Below, one piece after another: positions 4,104-13,071 of a stretch of DNA of 64,000 nucleotides (position 1 is the first letter of the stretch; each line of letters starts with the position of its first letter). The stretch covers positions 186,001-250,000 of the forward strand of contig JANSYR010000001.1 in NCBI GenBank assembly GCA_024742285.1, read 5' to 3'. This DNA comes from a bacterium. Its GTDB lineage: Bacteria > Myxococcota_A > UBA9160 > UBA4427. A program made the position numbers and the translations under genes. The notes beneath the pieces are model-generated. The model was not told where the DNA came from. It did not search any database and saw only the letters and a program-made list of their open reading frames with translations.

Positions 4104-7100
4104 TCAGCGGAACGCGGCGCGCGCCTCCGCGAGCTTCTCGCGATAGGCGGCGGCGCGTTCGAGCTTCAGGTCCTCGTAGCCGCGAACCGAGTCCGGCAGC
4201 GACGCGAGCGCCACCGCGGCCTCGAGGCTCGGCGCATCGAGGCCTTCGAGGACCTCCTCGATCGCGTTTCGGTACTCCCCCGGGAGCGCCCGCTCGACGC
4301 GCCGGACTTCGGCGTAGCCGAAGACGTCGAAGGGCGTGCCGCGCAGGAACCGTCCCTTCGCGAGGAGCCGGACCAGCGGCGCGGCCCCGAAGCCGACCCG
4401 GATCTTCGTGCGGAGGCCGAGGGCGCGCAGGATCGGCGGATGGAGACGCCAGGCGATCCGGCCGTTCTCGCCCGCGACTTCACGGGCAGCGGCCAGCCCG
4501 TCCGGATTCGTCATCAGGCGCGCGACTTCGTACTCGTCCTTGTAGGCCGTCAGCTTGTAGAGCTGCTCGGCCACGACCCGGGTCAACCGACGACTCCCCG
4601 GGACCACGCGTTCCTCGCTCGCGAGGGTCGACTCGACCAGGTCGAGCCATCGTGCGGCCTCGGCCTGCCCGCCCCAGGCGACGAGCTCGCTCGCGAGCCG
4701 CCGGAGATCGGCGGCGAGGGCCTCGTCGACGTCGAGGCGCACGACCCGGGCTTCGAGGGGCGCCGGGACCGGATACGAGATCGAAGGGGCCACCGGGACC
4801 GGCGCCCGCGCGCCGGCGCGACGGGCTTCCGCGACGTCCTCGGGACACGCGACCTGCGCCCGGCCCCACCGGAACGCCGCGAGATTCGCGTCGACCGCGA
4901 CGCCGTTCAGACGGATCGCTTCCTCGAGGCGTTCGGCCGCGACCGGCAGGCAGCCCGCCTGGATCGCCATGCCGACGACGAAGAGGTTGGCCGTCGTCGC
5001 GTTGCCGAAGAGATCCTCGGTGATCGCGGCGGCATCGGCCCAGAAGCTCGCGTTCGGCCGGGTCCGCGCGCCGATCCGCTCGCTCAGCGCGGCCGCCGAG
5101 GGCAGCTGGACTTCCGGGTGCGTGATCATCTCGCCGGTGGGCGTCGCCGTCGTCGAGCCGACGACCGTCGTGCGCTCGGGGTCCGTCGTGAGGAGCCCCT
5201 TGTCCGAGGCCGCGACGAGCTGATCGAAGGCGAGGAGGAGGTCGGCCTGCCCCTCGCCGAGCCGATTCGTCGACGTCGGCGCCGTGCGCGAGAGACGCAG
5301 GTCGCTCACCACCGGACCGGCCTTCTGCGAGAGGCCGATCTGGTCGAGCCCGCGCACGTGGAAGCCGTCGAGCATCGCCGCCGTCCCGACGACCTGGGCG
5401 ACGGTCACGACGCCGGTCCCGCCGATGCCGGTGATCCGGACCGCGAAATCGTCCTCGGGGACGATCCGCGGAGGAGTCGGAGAGACCGGCGGCTCGGGCA
5501 CGGGGTCCGGGGCGGACGACGACGCCTTCTCGCTCATGCCCGTCACGGTCATGAAGGACGGACAGTCGCCTTCGAGGCACGAGTAGTCGAGGTTGCAGGT
5601 CGTCTGGTCGATCTCGGTCTTGCGTCCGAAGGGCGTCTCCACCGGCTGGACCGAGAGGCAGTTGCTGACCTGGCCGCAATCGCCGCACCCCTCGCAGAGT
5701 CGGTGGTTGATGACGACGCGATGGGGCGGCGTCTCGACCTTGCCCCGCTTGCGCGCCCGGCGCGCCTCCGCGGCGCAGCCCTGGTCGTGGATCAGGACCG
5801 TCGTGCCGGGGACCTCTGCCAGGACCTCCTGGGCTTCGATGATCCGATCCCGCGACCAGACCGAGACACCGGCCGGAAGCGAGATGGCGTCGTAGCGAGC
5901 GAGGTCGTCGGTCGTCACGATCACGCGGGCCACGCCCTCGTTGAGCAGCCCACGCACGACCCTCGGCACCTCGAGCTGCCCCTGCGGATCCTGTCCGCCG
6001 GTCATCGCGACCGTCCCGTTGTAGAGGAGCTTGTAGGTCACGTTCACGCCGGCGGCGACGCTCGCCTGGATCGCGAGCTGACCGGAGTGGAAGAAGGTTC
6101 CGTCGCCGAGGTTCTGGATGAAGTGGTCCCGGTCGAGGAAGTCGGACATCCCGATCCACTGCACGCCTTCGTTCCCCATGCAGCCGAGCCCGCCGATGTC
6201 GCCGACCCGCTTCTCGTCCATCAGCAGGACCATCGTGTGGCAGCCGATCCCCGCCCCGACCAGCGCCCCGTCCGGGACCCGGGTGCTCCGGTTGTGCGGG
6301 CAGCCCGAACAGAAGAAGGGGGAGCGGGCCACCGGGAGGACGGTGAGCGCGTCCTGCGGCGCGGGCTTCTCCGGCACGAGCCGGTCGGCGATCCGCGCCG
6401 AGAGACGTCGGCGCAGGACCGGGATCACGCCGTCCGCATCGAGGGCGCCGTGGCCCGGGACGAGGGGCGCGCCGTCGGCGTCCTGCTTGCCGACGATGAC
6501 CGGGCGATCGACCTCGGCGTAGAGCGCGTCCTTGATCAGGGACTCGAGTCCCGGGCGCTTCTCCTCGATCACGAGGACCTCGTGCAGCCCCTTCGCGAAG
6601 CCGCGGACCGTCGCCGGGTCGAAGGGCATCGGCATCCCCATCTTGAGCAGCCGGATCCCGCAGGCGGCGATGTCCTCGTCGCGGCGTAGGCCGAGCCGCG
6701 CGAGGGCCTCGCGCACTTCGCGGTAGGTGATGCCCGAGGAGACGATCCCGATCCAGGCATCGGTCGGGTCGACGGTCACGTGGTTCAACCGGTTCGCGGT
6801 CGCATACCGTCGCGCCAGCTCGTAGCGGACCTCGACGATCTCACGCTCGACCTCCACGGTTCTCGGCGTGAGGAGCGCGCCGTCGGCATGATGCTCGTAG
6901 AGCCGGCCGTCGATCCGCGGGATCACCGGCACGACGCGATCGGGACCGAGCTCGACGCTCGCGGTCGCGTCCGCCACGTCCGCCACGATCTTGAGGGCGC
7001 TCCAGAGTCCCGTCGTCCGGGAGAGCGCGATCGCGTGACGCCCGAGATCGAGGGCCTCGGCGGGATCCCCCGGATAGAGCAGCGGCACGTGCATGTCCGT

Positions 7101-7616
7101 CAGGACCCCGGCCGAGGACGAGGGCACGGTCGAGCTCTTGGCCGCGGGGTCGTCGCCGACGATCGCGACGGCGCCGCCGTGCATCGACGTCCCTGCGTAG
7201 ACCGCGTGGCGAAGCGCATCGGCCGCGCGGTCGACGCCCGGCGCCTTGCCGTACCAGAGTCCGACGATCCCGTCGTAGCGACAGTCCGGCTGGGCGGCCG
7301 CGAGCTGGGAGCCCATGACCGCGCTCGCGCCGTACTCCTCGTTCATCGCGGGGCGACACGAAATCGGCAGCTCCGGCGCGAGGGCCGCGGCCTGCGCGGC
7401 GGCCCGGTCGTAGCCACCGAGGGGAGAGCCCGGATAGCCGGAGATCAGCGCGGCGGTATGGAGGCCCGCGGCCCGATCCACGCGCAGCTGCTCGAGGGGG
7501 AGTCGCGCGAGGGCCTGGATCCCCGTCAGGAAGACCACACCCTCGTCCGACAGGTAGCGATCGTCCAGCGAGTAGCCGGACGTACGGTCCGAGTCCTTCG
7601 ACCTTCGATCGTCCAT
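4104..7616 (-). CDS. Indolepyruvate:ferredoxin oxidoreductase, fused alpha-beta type
   Basis: About 1170 residues from the ATG at 7616, which has a G-rich ribosome site; an in-frame start at 7673 is less likely. The N-terminal part is a pyruvate-oxidoreductase-like domain beginning SDEGVVFLTGIQALARLP. The thiamine diphosphate region has GLGCMGNEGVQ and NLGDGTFFHSGQLA. Cysteine motifs CSGCPHNRST and CEGCGDCGQVSNC, plus later cysteines, would hold 4Fe-4S clusters. The C-terminal gamma domain shows ITGIGGTGVVTVAQV and IGLSQKAGPVVSDLR. The enzyme oxidatively decarboxylates aryl pyruvates to acyl-CoA with ferredoxin. Length and domain order fit the single-chain bacterial form, so no separate iorA/iorB is expected. 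Confidence 0.92.
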   Translation of the reverse strand: MDDRRSKDSDRTSGYSLDDRYLSDEGVVFLTGIQALARLPLEQLRVDRAAGLHTAALISGYPGSPLGGYDRAAAQAAALAPELPISCRPAMNEEYGASAVMGSQLAAAQPDCRYDGIVGLWYGKAPGVDRAADALRHAVYAGTSMHGGAVAIVGDDPAAKSSTVPSSSAGVLTDMHVPLLYPGDPAEALDLGRHAIALSRTTGLWSALKIVADVADATASVELGPDRVVPVIPRIDGRLYEHHADGALLTPRTVEVEREIVEVRYELARRYATANRLNHVTVDPTDAWIGIVSSGITYREVREALARLGLRRDEDIAACGIRLLKMGMPMPFDPATVRGFAKGLHEVLVIEEKRPGLESLIKDALYAEVDRPVIVGKQDADGAPLVPGHGALDADGVIPVLRRRLSARIADRLVPEKPAPQDALTVLPVARSPFFCSGCPHNRSTRVPDGALVGAGIGCHTMVLLMDEKRVGDIGGLGCMGNEGVQWIGMSDFLDRDHFIQNLGDGTFFHSGQLAIQASVAAGVNVTYKLLYNGTVAMTGGQDPQGQLEVPRVVRGLLNEGVARVIVTTDDLARYDAISLPAGVSVWSRDRIIEAQEVLAEVPGTTVLIHDQGCAAEARRARKRGKVETPPHRVVINHRLCEGCGDCGQVSNCLSVQPVETPFGRKTEIDQTTCNLDYSCLEGDCPSFMTVTGMSEKASSSAPDPVPEPPVSPTPPRIVPEDDFAVRITGIGGTGVVTVAQVVGTAAMLDGFHVRGLDQIGLSQKAGPVVSDLRLSRTAPTSTNRLGEGQADLLLAFDQLVAASDKGLLTTDPERTTVVGSTTATPTGEMITHPEVQLPSAAALSERIGARTRPNASFWADAAAITEDLFGNATTANLFVVGMAIQAGCLPVAAERLEEAIRLNGVAVDANLAAFRWGRAQVACPEDVAEARRAGARAPVPVAPSISYPVPAPLEARVVRLDVDEALAADLRRLASELVAWGGQAEAARWLDLVESTLASEERVVPGSRRLTRVVAEQLYKLTAYKDEYEVARLMTNPDGLAAAREVAGENGRIAWRLHPPILRALGLRTKIRVGFGAAPLVRLLAKGRFLRGTPFDVFGYAEVRRVERALPGEYRNAIEEVLEGLDAPSLEAAVALASLPDSVRGYEDLKLERAAAYREKLAEARAAFR

Positions 7617-7726
7617 TCGCCCCCCGGCGCGCGGCGCGCCGTAGAGCATAGATCGGCACTCGGGACGCTCCAATCAAGTGCAGGCGGGATGCACCCGGGC
7701 GGCGGACCGAAAGCGGATCGAACGAA

Positions 7727-9166
7727 TCAGACGGCGATGCCGCTCTCGCGCAGCTTGCGGTCGACGCCCTCCCAGACGGCGGTCTCGGACCCGAAGCTGA
7801 TGTGAGACCCCTCGTACCAGACGATCTCGGGCTCTTCCCAGTGTCGCCAGAGATCGCGCACGTGATCCGGCGTGACGAGACGGTCGCCGGTGGCGCCGAA
7901 GAGGAAGCGGTTTTCCTTCGGCACCTGCGGCGTGAGCGACGTCGGCGTGATCACCCGGAGCAGATCCGCCGCGCGGTCGAGATCGAAGCCCAGCGACTTC
8001 GCCCAGGCGAGCTGGGCGGCGGGCGCATGTCGCCGGAGGATCCGTTCGATCGACATGAGCGGAATCCCCGGCAGCGCCGCGGAGAGCCCCGTCGCGAGGC
8101 TCGCGAAGTTCGCGGTCGTGAGGCCGCCGAGCGAGAGGCCGAACGCCCCGATCGCGGGCGCGTCCTGGGCACGTACCCAGGAGAGCAGACGGCGCATGTC
8201 CCAGAGTCCCTGGGTCTCGGCATGGATCGTGTCGAGGACGTCGACGCCGAGGAATCCCTGTCCCGAGTGCCAGTGGGTCTTGCGCGGTCCATGGAGCGGC
8301 AAGACGGGAATCAGGAGGTTCACCCCGAGCCCCGCCGCCCCCTGGCTGCCGGGCCGTCCGTAGTCCTTGAAGAAGCGCGCGAAGAGCGAGACGTCGATCC
8401 GCGCGTGCCCCATGCGGTAGCCGTTGGTCGCGATCAGCCACGGGCGCGGCGGTCCTTCGTGACGGAGGACGTAGGCCCAGGCTTCTCGGCAGGGTTCGTA
8501 GCCGAGCCAGCGCTCACGACCGGGCTCGCCTTCCGGCGGCGCGTAACCACTCTCGAAGCGAAGGATCTCGACGCGCTGCCTGGCGATCTCTTCCACCCGC
8601 ACGTCCGGATCGACGAGGTCCGGAGGCGTCACGTGATAGGTCTCGGGCTTCTCGAGGAAGCCTTCCCGGGTGAAGAACGAATGGGCCCGATCGAGCTCGT
8701 CGATCACCCGGTCGAGGGTTCCGTCGGTCGGGATGGCGCCGGTCCCCGAGAGTGTCTCGAAGCCGAGGATGGCCTCGTCGACCGCGACCTTCGCCGCGGT
8801 GGAGACGCGGGTTCCCGGCTTCGGCACGCCCTCGACGTGGGGCTCGACCTGGATCGCCATTCGGCCCGCGCCCCACGCGCCGACCAGCGCCGAGAGGAAG
8901 AGCGCGGCGCCGGCGCCGAATCCGACGAAGAACGACATCGGCAGGGCGACGAGCGCGCCGGCGAGACCGGCGAAGGCGCCGAGCTGGGTGATGCGGTGAT
9001 CCCCGGGCGCGAGAAGCTGCATCACGCCGGAGGCGCCCAGACCCGCGCCGATGAGGCCGATCGGGAGGGCGGCCAGCCCCGAATGCGAGGCGGCGATCGA
9101 GATCCAGACGATCCCCGCCACGAGGGTCGGGGCCGCCCAGATCGAGAAGCGCGGCTGTTCGAACAA
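7727..9166 (-). CDS. Alpha/beta hydrolase with N-terminal membrane anchor
   Basis: 479 residues. The first about 105 residues hold four hydrophobic segments in two hairpins (11-50 and 64-100), so the catalytic part is membrane-tethered. A soluble linker leads to an alpha/beta hydrolase fold with nucleophile elbow GLSLGG (Ser345), acid Asp428 in GDRLVTP and His455 in EGSHISF, in the right order and spacing. The layout resembles the DUF2048/ABHD18-type hydrolases. The substrate is not readable; an ester or acyl lipid is plausible. It sits between the oxidoreductase and the predicted selenoprotein on the same strand, 33 bases after the latter. Confidence 0.8.
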   Translation of the reverse strand: MFEQPRFSIWAAPTLVAGIVWISIAASHSGLAALPIGLIGAGLGASGVMQLLAPGDHRITQLGAFAGLAGALVALPMSFFVGFGAGAALFLSALVGAWGAGRMAIQVEPHVEGVPKPGTRVSTAAKVAVDEAILGFETLSGTGAIPTDGTLDRVIDELDRAHSFFTREGFLEKPETYHVTPPDLVDPDVRVEEIARQRVEILRFESGYAPPEGEPGRERWLGYEPCREAWAYVLRHEGPPRPWLIATNGYRMGHARIDVSLFARFFKDYGRPGSQGAAGLGVNLLIPVLPLHGPRKTHWHSGQGFLGVDVLDTIHAETQGLWDMRRLLSWVRAQDAPAIGAFGLSLGGLTTANFASLATGLSAALPGIPLMSIERILRRHAPAAQLAWAKSLGFDLDRAADLLRVITPTSLTPQVPKENRFLFGATGDRLVTPDHVRDLWRHWEEPEIVWYEGSHISFGSETAVWEGVDRKLRESGIAV

Positions 9167-9199: not shown

Positions 9200-10534
9200 T
9201 CAGTCGGCGCGTCTGCGCGCCATGGTTCGCATGATCCGTCGGAAGATCGGCCGTGTCACCTGACCGAGGAAGCGCTGGACCGGCGTCACGATCTTCGTCC
9301 GTTCCGCGGCCGCGAAAGCGTCGATACCGAGCTCGTCACGGATCGTCGCCGTTCCGACGTTGACCACGGTATCGAGGGGAATTCCGGTTCCGTCCGCGAT
9401 CCGGACCATCCGCTCGAAGTTGCCGATCACCCCCGCTGCATCGACGAGCGCCGGCGCCCCCAGGACCTCGCGCACATGACCCCGCGCCTTCGCGATCGCC
9501 GCCTCGTCCTCGAGGAGCGCCGCCTCCACGAACCCGACGAGCGCGTCGGCGCCGGGGATCGCCGACTCGGAGGCGGCATCGCCGTCGGTGATCGCGCGCA
9601 GGTCGACCGCGCCGCCTTCGATCTCGATGCTCTCACGGAGCATCATCGCGTGCGAGCTCGTTCAATAGAAACACTCGTTGAGGGCGGACACGCGGCCTGC
9701 GATCAGCTCCGTCTGCGCCCGGGACAATGGCCCCCTCCCCCGCGAGAAGTCCATCATCTCTCCGCCCGCCATCGGCAGGTAGTGCGCCTGGGACAGATCC
9801 TTCAGCCAACGGACGCCGTCGGGCACGAGGCTCAGCGCCTTGATCACGTTCGGGACCATCGGCGCTGCCGGGAAGAGATCGTCGTTCTCCGCCTCGAGCT
9901 TCGCCGGCACGATCAGCGGCACCCAGGCGGTCCTGGTCTCGGTCACCGCCGGCCGCTTCCGGCTCGGCGCTCCCGTCTCGCTCGCCGGGAACGGCGTCGG
10001 CAAGGGCTCGGGGGCGAGCCCCATGGCGCGGTGAAACGCGTCGATGCTGCGGATGGCGACGACGATGCTCAGGAGCTCCACATAGTGGGTATCGGGTACG
10101 CCCTTCTGCGCCAGACCCTCGATCCAGCTGCCGCTGAGCCGCGTCGCGTCGGTGACCAGGCGATGGACCGCGTCGACGGCAGCCCTGGGAAGCACGTCTG
10201 CCGTGACGTGGGCGTGCTCCCCCTCGACGGAGAAGGGCGAGAGCGCCTCGCGCCGCTCCCGACAGAACGGGCAATAGACCGCCGCGCGCGTCTCGGCGGC
10301 GATCGCGACGCGCTCCTCGGCGGTCCACCAGGTTCCGGGGCGGGCGAGTCGCGCCCAGGCGCGTCGATGCGCGGCCGGAATGTCCTCGCGGATCGCATCC
10401 GAGAGCGCACCCGACGAGAACGCACCGGCGTAGTCGAAGGCCCCTTCGAAGGCCGCGGCGAAGCCCGGCACGAAGGCTTCGTCCCGCGCGGAGGTCGCGT
10501 CGGCAGCGATGGGTCGCGTGGAAGCGGCGGCCAT
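9200..10534 (-). CDS. AhpD/CMD-like alkylhydroperoxidase-related selenoprotein (in-frame TGA = Sec291)
   Basis: Two open frames, 9662-10534 and 9200-9646, are in the same phase and separated only by TGA at 9664-9662 plus five sense codons (T-S-S-H-A). Read through, they make a 444-residue protein in which TGA falls in the CMD/AhpD redox signature: NECFY-U-TSSHAMML, where the family has N-x-C-x-Y-C-x-x-x-H. So the second, attacking cysteine of C-x-x-C is replaced by selenocysteine. A hairpin of bacterial SECIS type lies directly downstream (separate entry). The N-terminal half carries a second C-x-x-C (AVYCPFCRERR), suggesting two CMD-like domains. The start ATG has GAGG upstream. AhpD-type C-x-x-U selenoproteins are known; the expected role is thiol/selenol reduction of organic hydroperoxides. 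The second half alone lacks the active site, so two separate genes are unlikely. Confidence 0.85.
9626..9644 (-). promoter_or_regulatory. Predicted bacterial SECIS hairpin within the selenoprotein coding sequence
   Basis: On the minus-strand transcript, 17 bases after the UGA, a perfect 7-bp stem GATGCTC / GAGCATC encloses the 5-base loop CGTGA, extendable by one U-G pair. The apical loop starts 25 bases after the UGA and has G as its second base. Both fit the usual bacterial SECIS rules: a small loop with G in the first two positions, roughly 16-37 bases from the UGA. SelB would bind it to direct Sec-tRNA to the UGA. The bases also encode M-L-R-E-S-I. Confidence 0.75.
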
Positions 10535-10764: not shown

Positions 10765-13071
10765 ATGCTCCCCTTCCTGGACGACGACGACGTGCGCGCG
10801 TGGGTGCGCTCCCGCGTCGGCACGTTCTTCCTGGTCGCTCTCTTCGGCGTCGCCCTCGCCGGTCCGGCCGCCGGTCAGAATCCGCTCCTCGGGGCGCTCG
10901 ATGCATCCGAAGAAGGGCCGGCGGCGGCAGAGCCGGATCGACCGAGCGACGCCGATCCCCTGAGCGCGATCGAGATTGCGCTGACCGAGGCCCGTAGTCG
11001 CCTCGCCGCGCTCACCAGCGCCCAGGCCTCGGAGGACGAGGAAGACGGCGAACCGCTGCCGCCCTCCGCCTCGATCGAGCTCGCGAACCGCCTCGTCCGG
11101 GTTCTCGAGCAGCGACGCGAGGCCCAGCTCAAGATCGATGCCCTCGAGGTCGGTCGGAGCATGATCGAGTCCGGACTCGCACGAGACCCGTCGGAGATCG
11201 TCGCCGATCCTCCGCCCTTCCCGGTCCCGACCCTCGATGGCGTGCTCCAGGCCTGGCGGGACGCCGCGCGCGAGGAGGAGAAGACGAGGTCCATTCTCGA
11301 GGATCGGCGCGCGAACCTCGACCTCGCCCGCAAAGCCCGCGACGACCTCGCCAGAGAGCGACGGCGCGTGAAAGACGTGCTCGAACGCGAGAAGCAGGAG
11401 GTCGAGCGGATCCGGCTGCGGACCGAGCTCCGCGTGCTCGAGGACCAGCTGCGGATCGCCAACGAGCAGGTCCTGCTCGCGGAGCAGCGCGTCGCGAGCG
11501 TCACGATCGAGCACGACATCCACGTCTCGATGACCCGCCAGACCCGCGCGGCGCTCACCTGGGTCGAGACCCAGCTCCAGCCCCGCGAGTCGGATCTCAC
11601 CGATGCCATCGCCCGCCTCGACCGGGAGCGCCTCGACCTCGACCGCGAGCTCGACCTGAAACGCTCGCGTCTCGTCGCCGCGGAGGGCACGCTCCGCACG
11701 ACCGAAGAGCGGCGCGGACGTGTCGACGCCGGGAGGTCCCCCGACTTCGCGCTCGAGCTCGCGACCCGACGCGCCCAGCTCTCCCATCGCCAGGAGATGG
11801 TCTCCCTCCTCTCGGAGCGGATCGAGCGCCTGGCGCGGATGCGCACGACCTGGCAGCACCGCTACGCGGTGCTCGGCCCGGACTTCGACCTCGAGGCCGC
11901 CCCGGGCTGGCGCGCAGCCGCCAACCTCCAGCTGGAACGGCTCCAGAACCTCCAACGCATTCACGAGACCGAACGCGCCGAGGCCCAGCTCGCCCAGGCC
12001 GACCTGCTCCGGCGCTCGACGGAGGTCGGGAGCGAGTCCCCCTCGGCCCAGCGCTTCCTCGAGCTCGAGTTCGAGGACCTGGACGAACTCGTCGCGCTCT
12101 ACGACGCGGACCTGCTCTCGTTCGACGCGGCGATCGCCCTCGAGGAGCGACTCGTCGAGGAGCTGACGTCCCGGATGAAGCGACGCAGCCTGAGCGAGCG
12201 GGCCCGCTCCGCCTGGGCCACGATCACGTCCTTCTGGACGCGGGAACTCACGACCTCCCAGGACAGCCCGATCACCCCGGGCAAGATCGCGATCGCCCTC
12301 GCCGTCTTCGTCTTCGGCCTCTACGTCGCTCGCCTGGTCCGCTCCCAGCTCCGCCAGCGCTTCTTCCCCCAGTTCGGCTTCGACGCCGGCGCCTCGAGCG
12401 CCTTCGCCTCCCTGACCTTCTACGCGCTCATGGCGGTCGCGTTCCTGCTGGCGCTCCAGGCCGTCAACATCCCCCTGACCGCCTTCGCCGTCGCCGGTGG
12501 CGCGCTCGCCATCGGGATCGGCTTCGGCTCCCAGACCGTCATCTCGAACTTCATCAGCGGGCTGCTCCTGCTGGCGGAGCGACCGATCCGGACCGGCGAT
12601 CTCGTCGAGGTCGGCGGCGTCGTCGGCACCGTCGACACGATCGGCCTGCGCAGCACGCGAATCCAGACCCCGGACAACTTCCACATCATCGTGCCCAACG
12701 CGGCCTTCCTCGAGAGCAACGTCGTCAACTGGACCCACGAGGATCCGCTTCTTCGCCTGCGCGTGAGCGTCGGCGTCGCCTATGGCTCCCCCGCTCGAGA
12801 GGTGGAGGCGCTGCTCCTCCGGGCGGCGAGCGAGCACCCTCGGTGCCTCCGTCGGCCGAGCGAGCCGAGCGTGATCTTCCAGGACTTCGGGGACAGCGCG
12901 CTGCTCTTCGAGGTCCGCTTCTGGGTCCGCTACACCGAACAGACCGACCGCGCCGCGATCCGCAGCGACATCCGCTACCGGATCGACGAGCTCTTCGCGG
13001 AGCACGGGATCGTCATCGCATTCCCGCAGATGGACGTCCATCTCGACGTCGCCGGGAAGGAGTCGTCCTGA
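10765..13071 (+). CDS. MscS-family mechanosensitive channel, large periplasmic-domain type
   Basis: 768 residues. An N-terminal hydrophobic segment near residues 14-35 precedes a long charged coiled-coil region (about 60-480). The C-terminal part is the MscS core: membrane helices about 507-570, the pore helix rich in Gly/Ala (AVAGGALAIGIGFGSQTVISNFISG), the beta domain (RTGDLVEVGGVVGTV, IQTPDNFHIIVPNAAFLESNVVNWT) and the mixed C-terminal domain. The layout resembles MscK/MscM-type channels. It opens on membrane tension to release osmolytes. It is divergent from the selenoprotein gene across 230 bases and converges on the 13096-13812 lipoprotein. Confidence 0.92.
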   Translation: MLPFLDDDDVRAWVRSRVGTFFLVALFGVALAGPAAGQNPLLGALDASEEGPAAAEPDRPSDADPLSAIEIALTEARSRLAALTSAQASEDEEDGEPLPPSASIELANRLVRVLEQRREAQLKIDALEVGRSMIESGLARDPSEIVADPPPFPVPTLDGVLQAWRDAAREEEKTRSILEDRRANLDLARKARDDLARERRRVKDVLEREKQEVERIRLRTELRVLEDQLRIANEQVLLAEQRVASVTIEHDIHVSMTRQTRAALTWVETQLQPRESDLTDAIARLDRERLDLDRELDLKRSRLVAAEGTLRTTEERRGRVDAGRSPDFALELATRRAQLSHRQEMVSLLSERIERLARMRTTWQHRYAVLGPDFDLEAAPGWRAAANLQLERLQNLQRIHETERAEAQLAQADLLRRSTEVGSESPSAQRFLELEFEDLDELVALYDADLLSFDAAIALEERLVEELTSRMKRRSLSERARSAWATITSFWTRELTTSQDSPITPGKIAIALAVFVFGLYVARLVRSQLRQRFFPQFGFDAGASSAFASLTFYALMAVAFLLALQAVNIPLTAFAVAGGALAIGIGFGSQTVISNFISGLLLLAERPIRTGDLVEVGGVVGTVDTIGLRSTRIQTPDNFHIIVPNAAFLESNVVNWTHEDPLLRLRVSVGVAYGSPAREVEALLLRAASEHPRCLRRPSEPSVIFQDFGDSALLFEVRFWVRYTEQTDRAAIRSDIRYRIDELFAEHGIVIAFPQMDVHLDVAGKESS

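Follow-up and report, generated by a model that had tools for sequence, protein, structure and literature searches.

The window analysed here, a stretch of 64,000 nucleotides of bacterial DNA, almost certainly carries a single gene for a selenoprotein of the family NF041238 at a place where two shorter frames are seen on inspection. We base this reading on the gene structure, a conserved in-frame UGA, a hairpin behind it, the selenocysteine machinery of the genome and the predicted fold of the protein, all of them shown by computation. The locus adds to the cases where UGA recoding conceals an active site from ordinary gene prediction. The features are collected in Table 1.

Table 1. Features of the selenoprotein locus and of the adjoining genes (positions in the window)
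Feature	Position	Strand	Remarks
Selenoprotein gene, family NF041238 (AhpD_rel_CFYUT)	9200..10534	-	444 codons + stop; 453 bits, E 7.8e-136
In-frame UGA, predicted selenocysteine 291, second position of C-x-x-U (C288-F-Y-U291)	9662..9664	-	TGA in 71/71 homologues
bSECIS hairpin GAUGCUC-CGUGA-GAGCAUC	9626..9644	-	7-bp stem, 5-nt loop; loop starts 24 nt after UGA
C-terminal AhpD-like domain, residues 203-408	9311..9928	-	Pfam CMD 27.8 bits; AhpD structures Z 13.8
N-terminal half, residues 28-200, predicted degenerate AhpD-like domain with C88-x-x-C91	9935..10453	-	AF2 model, PDB matches, profile
Downstream gene, alpha/beta-hydrolase-like (weak match)	7727..9166	-	ABHD18 16.1 bits, below cut-off; 33 nt after selenoprotein stop
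Indolepyruvate ferredoxin oxidoreductase family gene	4104-7673		two places downstream of selenoprotein
Mechanosensitive channel, MscS/MscK type	10765-13071		divergent, adjoins selenoprotein gene

Gene structure and conservation of the UGA

On the minus strand the frame 10534..9203 is broken by a single TGA (9664..9662) and is free of any other stop. The upstream frame begins with the ATG at 10534 and comprises 290 codons up to this TGA (9664-9662). Between the inner TGA and the ATG at 9646 there are five codons (T S S H A), and from there the frame continues to the TGA at 9202-9200. An earlier note on this DNA, made from the letters alone, had given these coordinates, the two frames in phase and the five intervening codons, all of them correctly. 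The read-through product has 444 aa with U at position 291 in NECFY-U-TSSHAMML; the wider context of U291 is GRVSALNECFYUTSSHAMMLRES. A scan of the 64 kb window for TGA codons flanked on either side by coding-type GC3 gave four hits. The TGA of this locus is among them, another is the terminal stop of the selenoprotein gene itself and two more lie elsewhere. That the terminal TGA at 9200 might be read through as well was considered and is ruled out, as relatives terminate there with TAA, TAG or TGA.

The read-through protein matches NF041238 with residues 48-408 over positions 1-356 of the 357 positions of the model, the curated cut-off being 175 bits. Taken separately, the upstream half scores 293 bits over model positions 1-238 and the downstream half 133 bits over positions 240-356. 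Because the halves match these two parts of one and the same model, a chance pairing is implausible, and the proposal of the earlier note that they form one gene is borne out on either side of the UGA. The model ends about 36 residues before the C-terminus, and about 47 N-terminal residues of the window protein also lie outside it. All 53 aligned members match NF041238 too, and the CFYUT signature is present with a UGA-encoded U (C288-F-Y-U291-T). The Pfam CMD cut-off (23 bits) is passed only by the joined halves, with 27.8 bits for the joined protein and 14.8 without joining.

Relatives were sought in genome contigs with peptide stretches away from residue 291, and the search is thus unbiased for Sec or Cys. 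All 41 relatives from this contig scan have TGA at the aligned codon. After loci from the phylum search were added, the aligned set comprises 71 homologues, all with TGA at the codon; they come from varied MAGs with identities down to 33-36%, and C288 is invariant in the same 71. A sequencing error, which the earlier note had named as a possible objection, is excluded because independent genomes carry the same TGA. The family was further searched in 284 genomes of the window's phylum, 369 of the class of G295, 396 of the phylum of G297 and 385 of the class of G288, which gave 61, 1, 15 and 47 matches over the cut-off, respectively. All 124 of these matches from 1,434 sampled genomes (the samples may overlap) hold exactly one in-frame TGA; here the number counts in-frame TGA per match, whereas the codon position was aligned for the 71 homologues.

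The earlier note had expected homologues with Cys or Sec at residue 291. This holds in part. The Sec codon is found throughout the 71 homologues and Cys occurs in distant AhpD structures (6k40 NRCVYCAVSH, 2oyo NRCLYCAVSH, 3c1l NHCYYCLTAH), but no Cys form of NF041238 itself was seen in the four taxonomic groups with their 1,434 genomes. Because AhpD structures carry Cys there, a Sec/Cys pair exists at the level of the superfamily, and the note's reading of the TGA as standing in for the second cysteine of a redox C-x-x-C agrees with these structures. A single stop-free match with E below 1e-20, in G099, came up in the search for a Cys form; it was rejected as a partial hit that ends short of the site. 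A partial literature search did not yield a prior description of the missing Cys form, an absence that itself rests on the sample. The case is an ordinary one for the family. Less ordinary are the predicted double AhpD shape resembling human Sestrin2 (see below) and the fact that every relative found would have selenium at position 291, which makes the family a possible subject for studying what selenium by itself achieves in an AhpD site.

Many genomes contain two to four copies of the selenoprotein, some of them adjoining. The copies are convergent and about 1 kb apart on G066:C80, divergent at a distance of about 130 bases on G259:C12 and in tandem with about 200 bases between them on G1360:C9.

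If the TGA were a real stop, the locus would consist of two separate genes or of a pseudogene, with the second half starting from the ATG at 9646 or dead. This is what a plain list of reading frames suggests, as it shows the locus as a 290-aa and a 148-aa frame. Against it, a stop at this codon would part C288 from H295 and so break up the active site in each of the 71 homologues while both halves are strongly conserved, synonymous constraint is found directly after the junction (see below), and a decaying gene would not retain the identical TGA across distant taxa. We therefore consider two genes or a pseudogene to be very improbable. That neither half holds a complete active site had already been seen in the earlier note; the UGA indeed separates C288 from H295.

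The bSECIS hairpin and the selenocysteine machinery

The hairpin downstream of the UGA fits the bSECIS model of PMC13188914 in its 7 bp, its 5-nt loop CGUGA with G second in the loop and its distance of 24 nt. Taken alone it has a folding energy of -10.3 kcal/mol (z -3.5). For the comparison with relatives a set of 60 distinct sequences was available. RNAalifold on 38 distinct sequences returns a consensus with exactly these 7 pairs; 94.7% of the cells are paired, compared with 27-54% when the partner is slid, and there are 12 two-sided changes. Stronger support than these pairing counts comes from the fixation of codons. Leu299 is encoded by CTC in 59/59 sequences (background 39%), Arg300 by CGT or CGG in 58/58 (background 36%) and Ser302 by AGC or AGT in 56/56 (background 35%); these counts come from related sequences and p-values calculated from them therefore overstate. 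Such codon uniformity, in proteins that differ at about half of their residues, is not accounted for by protein constraint. When a 51-nt stretch is folded alone, the hairpin is not the minimum-energy structure (z -0.89); this reflects a limit of folding a single sequence in the present case. As the single-sequence minimum-energy fold gives no support, the claim of a hairpin rests on comparative evidence. An Rfam scan of the locus returned nothing meaningful. Thus, the hairpin at bSECIS distance that the earlier note had pointed out is supported by the comparison of 60 sequences, by codon choice and by pair-preserving changes.

The genome (6.5 Mb in 56 contigs, 95% complete) contains a tRNA-Sec with the anticodon TCA (67.8 bits, cut-off 47) as well as SelA (523 bits, cut-off 268), SelB (284 bits, cut-off 242) and SelD (259 bits, cut-off 125). 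All four components named in the earlier note are present, each over its curated cut-off. SelA is found in 39 of the 40 family-positive genomes of the phylum and in 173 of 284 overall (hypergeometric p ~1e-8, a value which ignores kinship); most genomes of the class carry SelA regardless of the family. Genomes reached via other loci, most of them from more distant groups, have SelA in 19 of 20 cases. The family-positive phylum genome without selA (G192) may be incomplete, and a distant MAG without selA (G302, locus L057, named Actinomycetes) may be contaminated or incomplete.

An in-frame UGA by itself leaves the inserted residue unspecified, and the codon could be read through with one of the standard residues, such as Trp or Cys inserted by a suppressor. 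We give this reading hardly any credence, since tRNA-Sec, SelA, SelB and SelD are encoded in the genome, the hairpin fits the published bSECIS model (PMC13188914) and the family tracks selA across genomes. We infer instead that selenium is inserted at this codon, and suggest that translation proceeds in the following steps. With the ribosome at UGA codon 291, the downstream hairpin would let SelB deliver selenocysteyl-tRNA(Sec). Translation past Sec291 would then run on to residue 444.

Two other loci of the same genome deserve mention. A CMD-domain gene on the minus strand (L089, C5:93612-93803) has an in-frame TGA at CxxU (MIGCVFULDINSAVG), followed by an apparent hairpin CTCTGCC-GTC-GGCAGAG, and is a candidate selenoprotein. 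Another CMD-domain gene on the plus strand (L090, C7:48507-48755) likewise has an in-frame TGA at CxxU (MNECDTULFARYAQAAH) and behind it an apparent hairpin ATGCGCA-GGC-TGCGCAT; it would be the third CMD-type candidate selenoprotein.

Active site, N-terminal half and gene neighbourhood

The AlphaFold2 model, calculated from an alignment of 53 sequences, has a mean pLDDT of 92.6, and its C-terminal half superimposes on AhpD structures with Z 13.8 over about 176 residues. Residues E276, C288, Y290, position 291 and H295 are invariant and constitute a complete AhpD-type relay. The spacing of these residues is that of YP_296737.1, whose relay consists of Glu74, Cys86, Tyr88, Cys89 and His93 (PMC4674687); the relay of AhpD is described in PMC3141380. 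Cys288 and Sec291 would accordingly form the redox pair of a hydroperoxide or disulfide reductase, and the C-terminal relay (Glu276, Cys288, Tyr290, Sec291, His295) most likely reduces hydroperoxides or disulfides. We favour such a peroxide- or disulfide-reducing activity, with moderate confidence.

AhpD-fold proteins are not all peroxide reducers. The protein could be a selenoprotein with another function, that is, a Sec-dependent enzyme resembling a reductive dehalogenase (cf. Bmp8), another oxidoreductase or a redox sensor with AhpD fold. Structures of the Bmp8 debrominase match the model nearly as well as those of AhpD (Z 13.0), the fold does not reveal substrate specificity, and the neighbouring genes vary between lineages. 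On the other side, the relay residues and their spacing are those of the peroxide-reducing AhpD proteins, and we regard a function outside peroxide reduction as a serious possibility, albeit the less probable one.

The gene neighbourhood offers no clear functional lead. A comparison of related loci revealed no redox partner gene that is broadly conserved beside the selenoprotein. The hydrolase-like gene downstream is possibly co-transcribed with the selenoprotein gene. A homologue of this hydrolase lies directly downstream in the five nearest loci (L018-L021 and L084, with L021 and L084 looking like the same species), and the oxidoreductase is kept after the hydrolase in three of those five; in more distant relatives the adjoining genes are different ones. 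In the gammaproteobacterial locus L045 an indolepyruvate ferredoxin oxidoreductase homologue is located upstream of the selenoprotein, possibly a recurrent association.

The N-terminal half has no Pfam match. Modelled alone it reaches a pLDDT of 90.8 (AF2), and in a structure search AhpD/CMD proteins occupy the first 13 PDB rows (Z 8.0-6.2), with the next row at 3.5; the profile of this half finds 2oyo at E 0.0064. The second C-x-x-C which the earlier note had noticed here is present at residues 88-91 and conserved in nearly all members, with Cys88 in 65 of the 68 sequences that have a residue there and Cys91 in 65 of 66. In place of the relay Glu and His the N-terminal half has V at -12 and R/K at +4. 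A profile-profile test for internal duplication is weak (P 0.012, probability 3.7%); the two CxxC/U motifs are aligned in register. Judged from the predicted model, two AhpD-type helical domains in tandem are the best reading of the protein. This reading gives a structural account of the half without Pfam annotation, and we did not find it described for NF041238 in a partial literature search. The N-terminal dithiol Cys88/Cys91 may pass electrons or may be structural.

Comparison with known systems

Over the whole chain, the predicted model comes closest in structure to human Sestrin2 (Z 16.4 over 237 residues, rmsd 3.2 A). A VIA-align to 5t0n covers residues 26-386 of the model, again a comparison with a prediction. 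Sestrin2 (5t0n, 5dj4) and, as modelled, the window protein each combine two AhpD-like domains in a single chain, arranged as in Sestrins; the tandem of Sestrin2 is pseudo-twofold, and the identity is 12%. Sestrin2 carries an active site with one Cys in its N-terminal domain and has lost the site of the C-terminal domain (PMC4674687). The window protein reverses this order, with the full relay in the C-terminal domain and a degenerate N-terminal half. No Sestrin chain was found in a PDB profile search with E up to 1, and no Sestrin family in a Pfam search with E up to 0.1, results with which distant homology remains compatible. Because the sequence searches show no link to Sestrins, the two may resemble each other simply in having the geometry of an AhpD dimer built within a single chain. 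A link between Sestrins and NF041238 was likewise not found in a partial literature search. One could go further and see in NF041238 a bacterial Sestrin-like tandem AhpD with obligatory Sec, in which the N-terminal CxxC feeds electrons to the C-terminal CxxU and which has common ancestry with the eukaryotic Sestrins. We think this unlikely; if true, one chain would do what AhpD needs partner proteins for.

With AhpD and peroxidase-related proteins (TIGR01926; 6k40, 2oyo, 2prr; M. tuberculosis AhpD 1gu9) the window protein has in common the fold of its C-terminal half and the helix-turn-helix redox motif of Glu, Cys, Tyr/His, second redox residue and His in the same spacing. These proteins are single-motif proteins with CxxC, whereas the window protein is a predicted tandem with CxxU. 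A CxxU in a CMD/AhpD domain is also found in AhpD-like 1 and 2 (PMC2398784) and in the CMD domain-containing protein (PMC1088965), selenoproteins that belong to families other than NF041238.

The family itself goes back to the Sargasso Sea selenoproteome of 2005, where four sequences with CxxU and a predicted SECIS were reported as 'hypothetical protein 1' (PMC1088965). A 2026 review, which refers to the Sargasso Sea work, equates NF041238 with 'AhpD-related protein (hypothetical protein 1, Sargasso Sea metagenome)', with CxxU (PMC13188914). The database name given in the earlier note, 'alkylhydroperoxidase-related (seleno)protein', is indeed that of NF041238. The gene in the window is an additional member of the family published in 2005 and not a new kind of selenoprotein: the full-length match, the CFYUT motif, the CxxU and the bSECIS are all common to both, and nothing essential differs.
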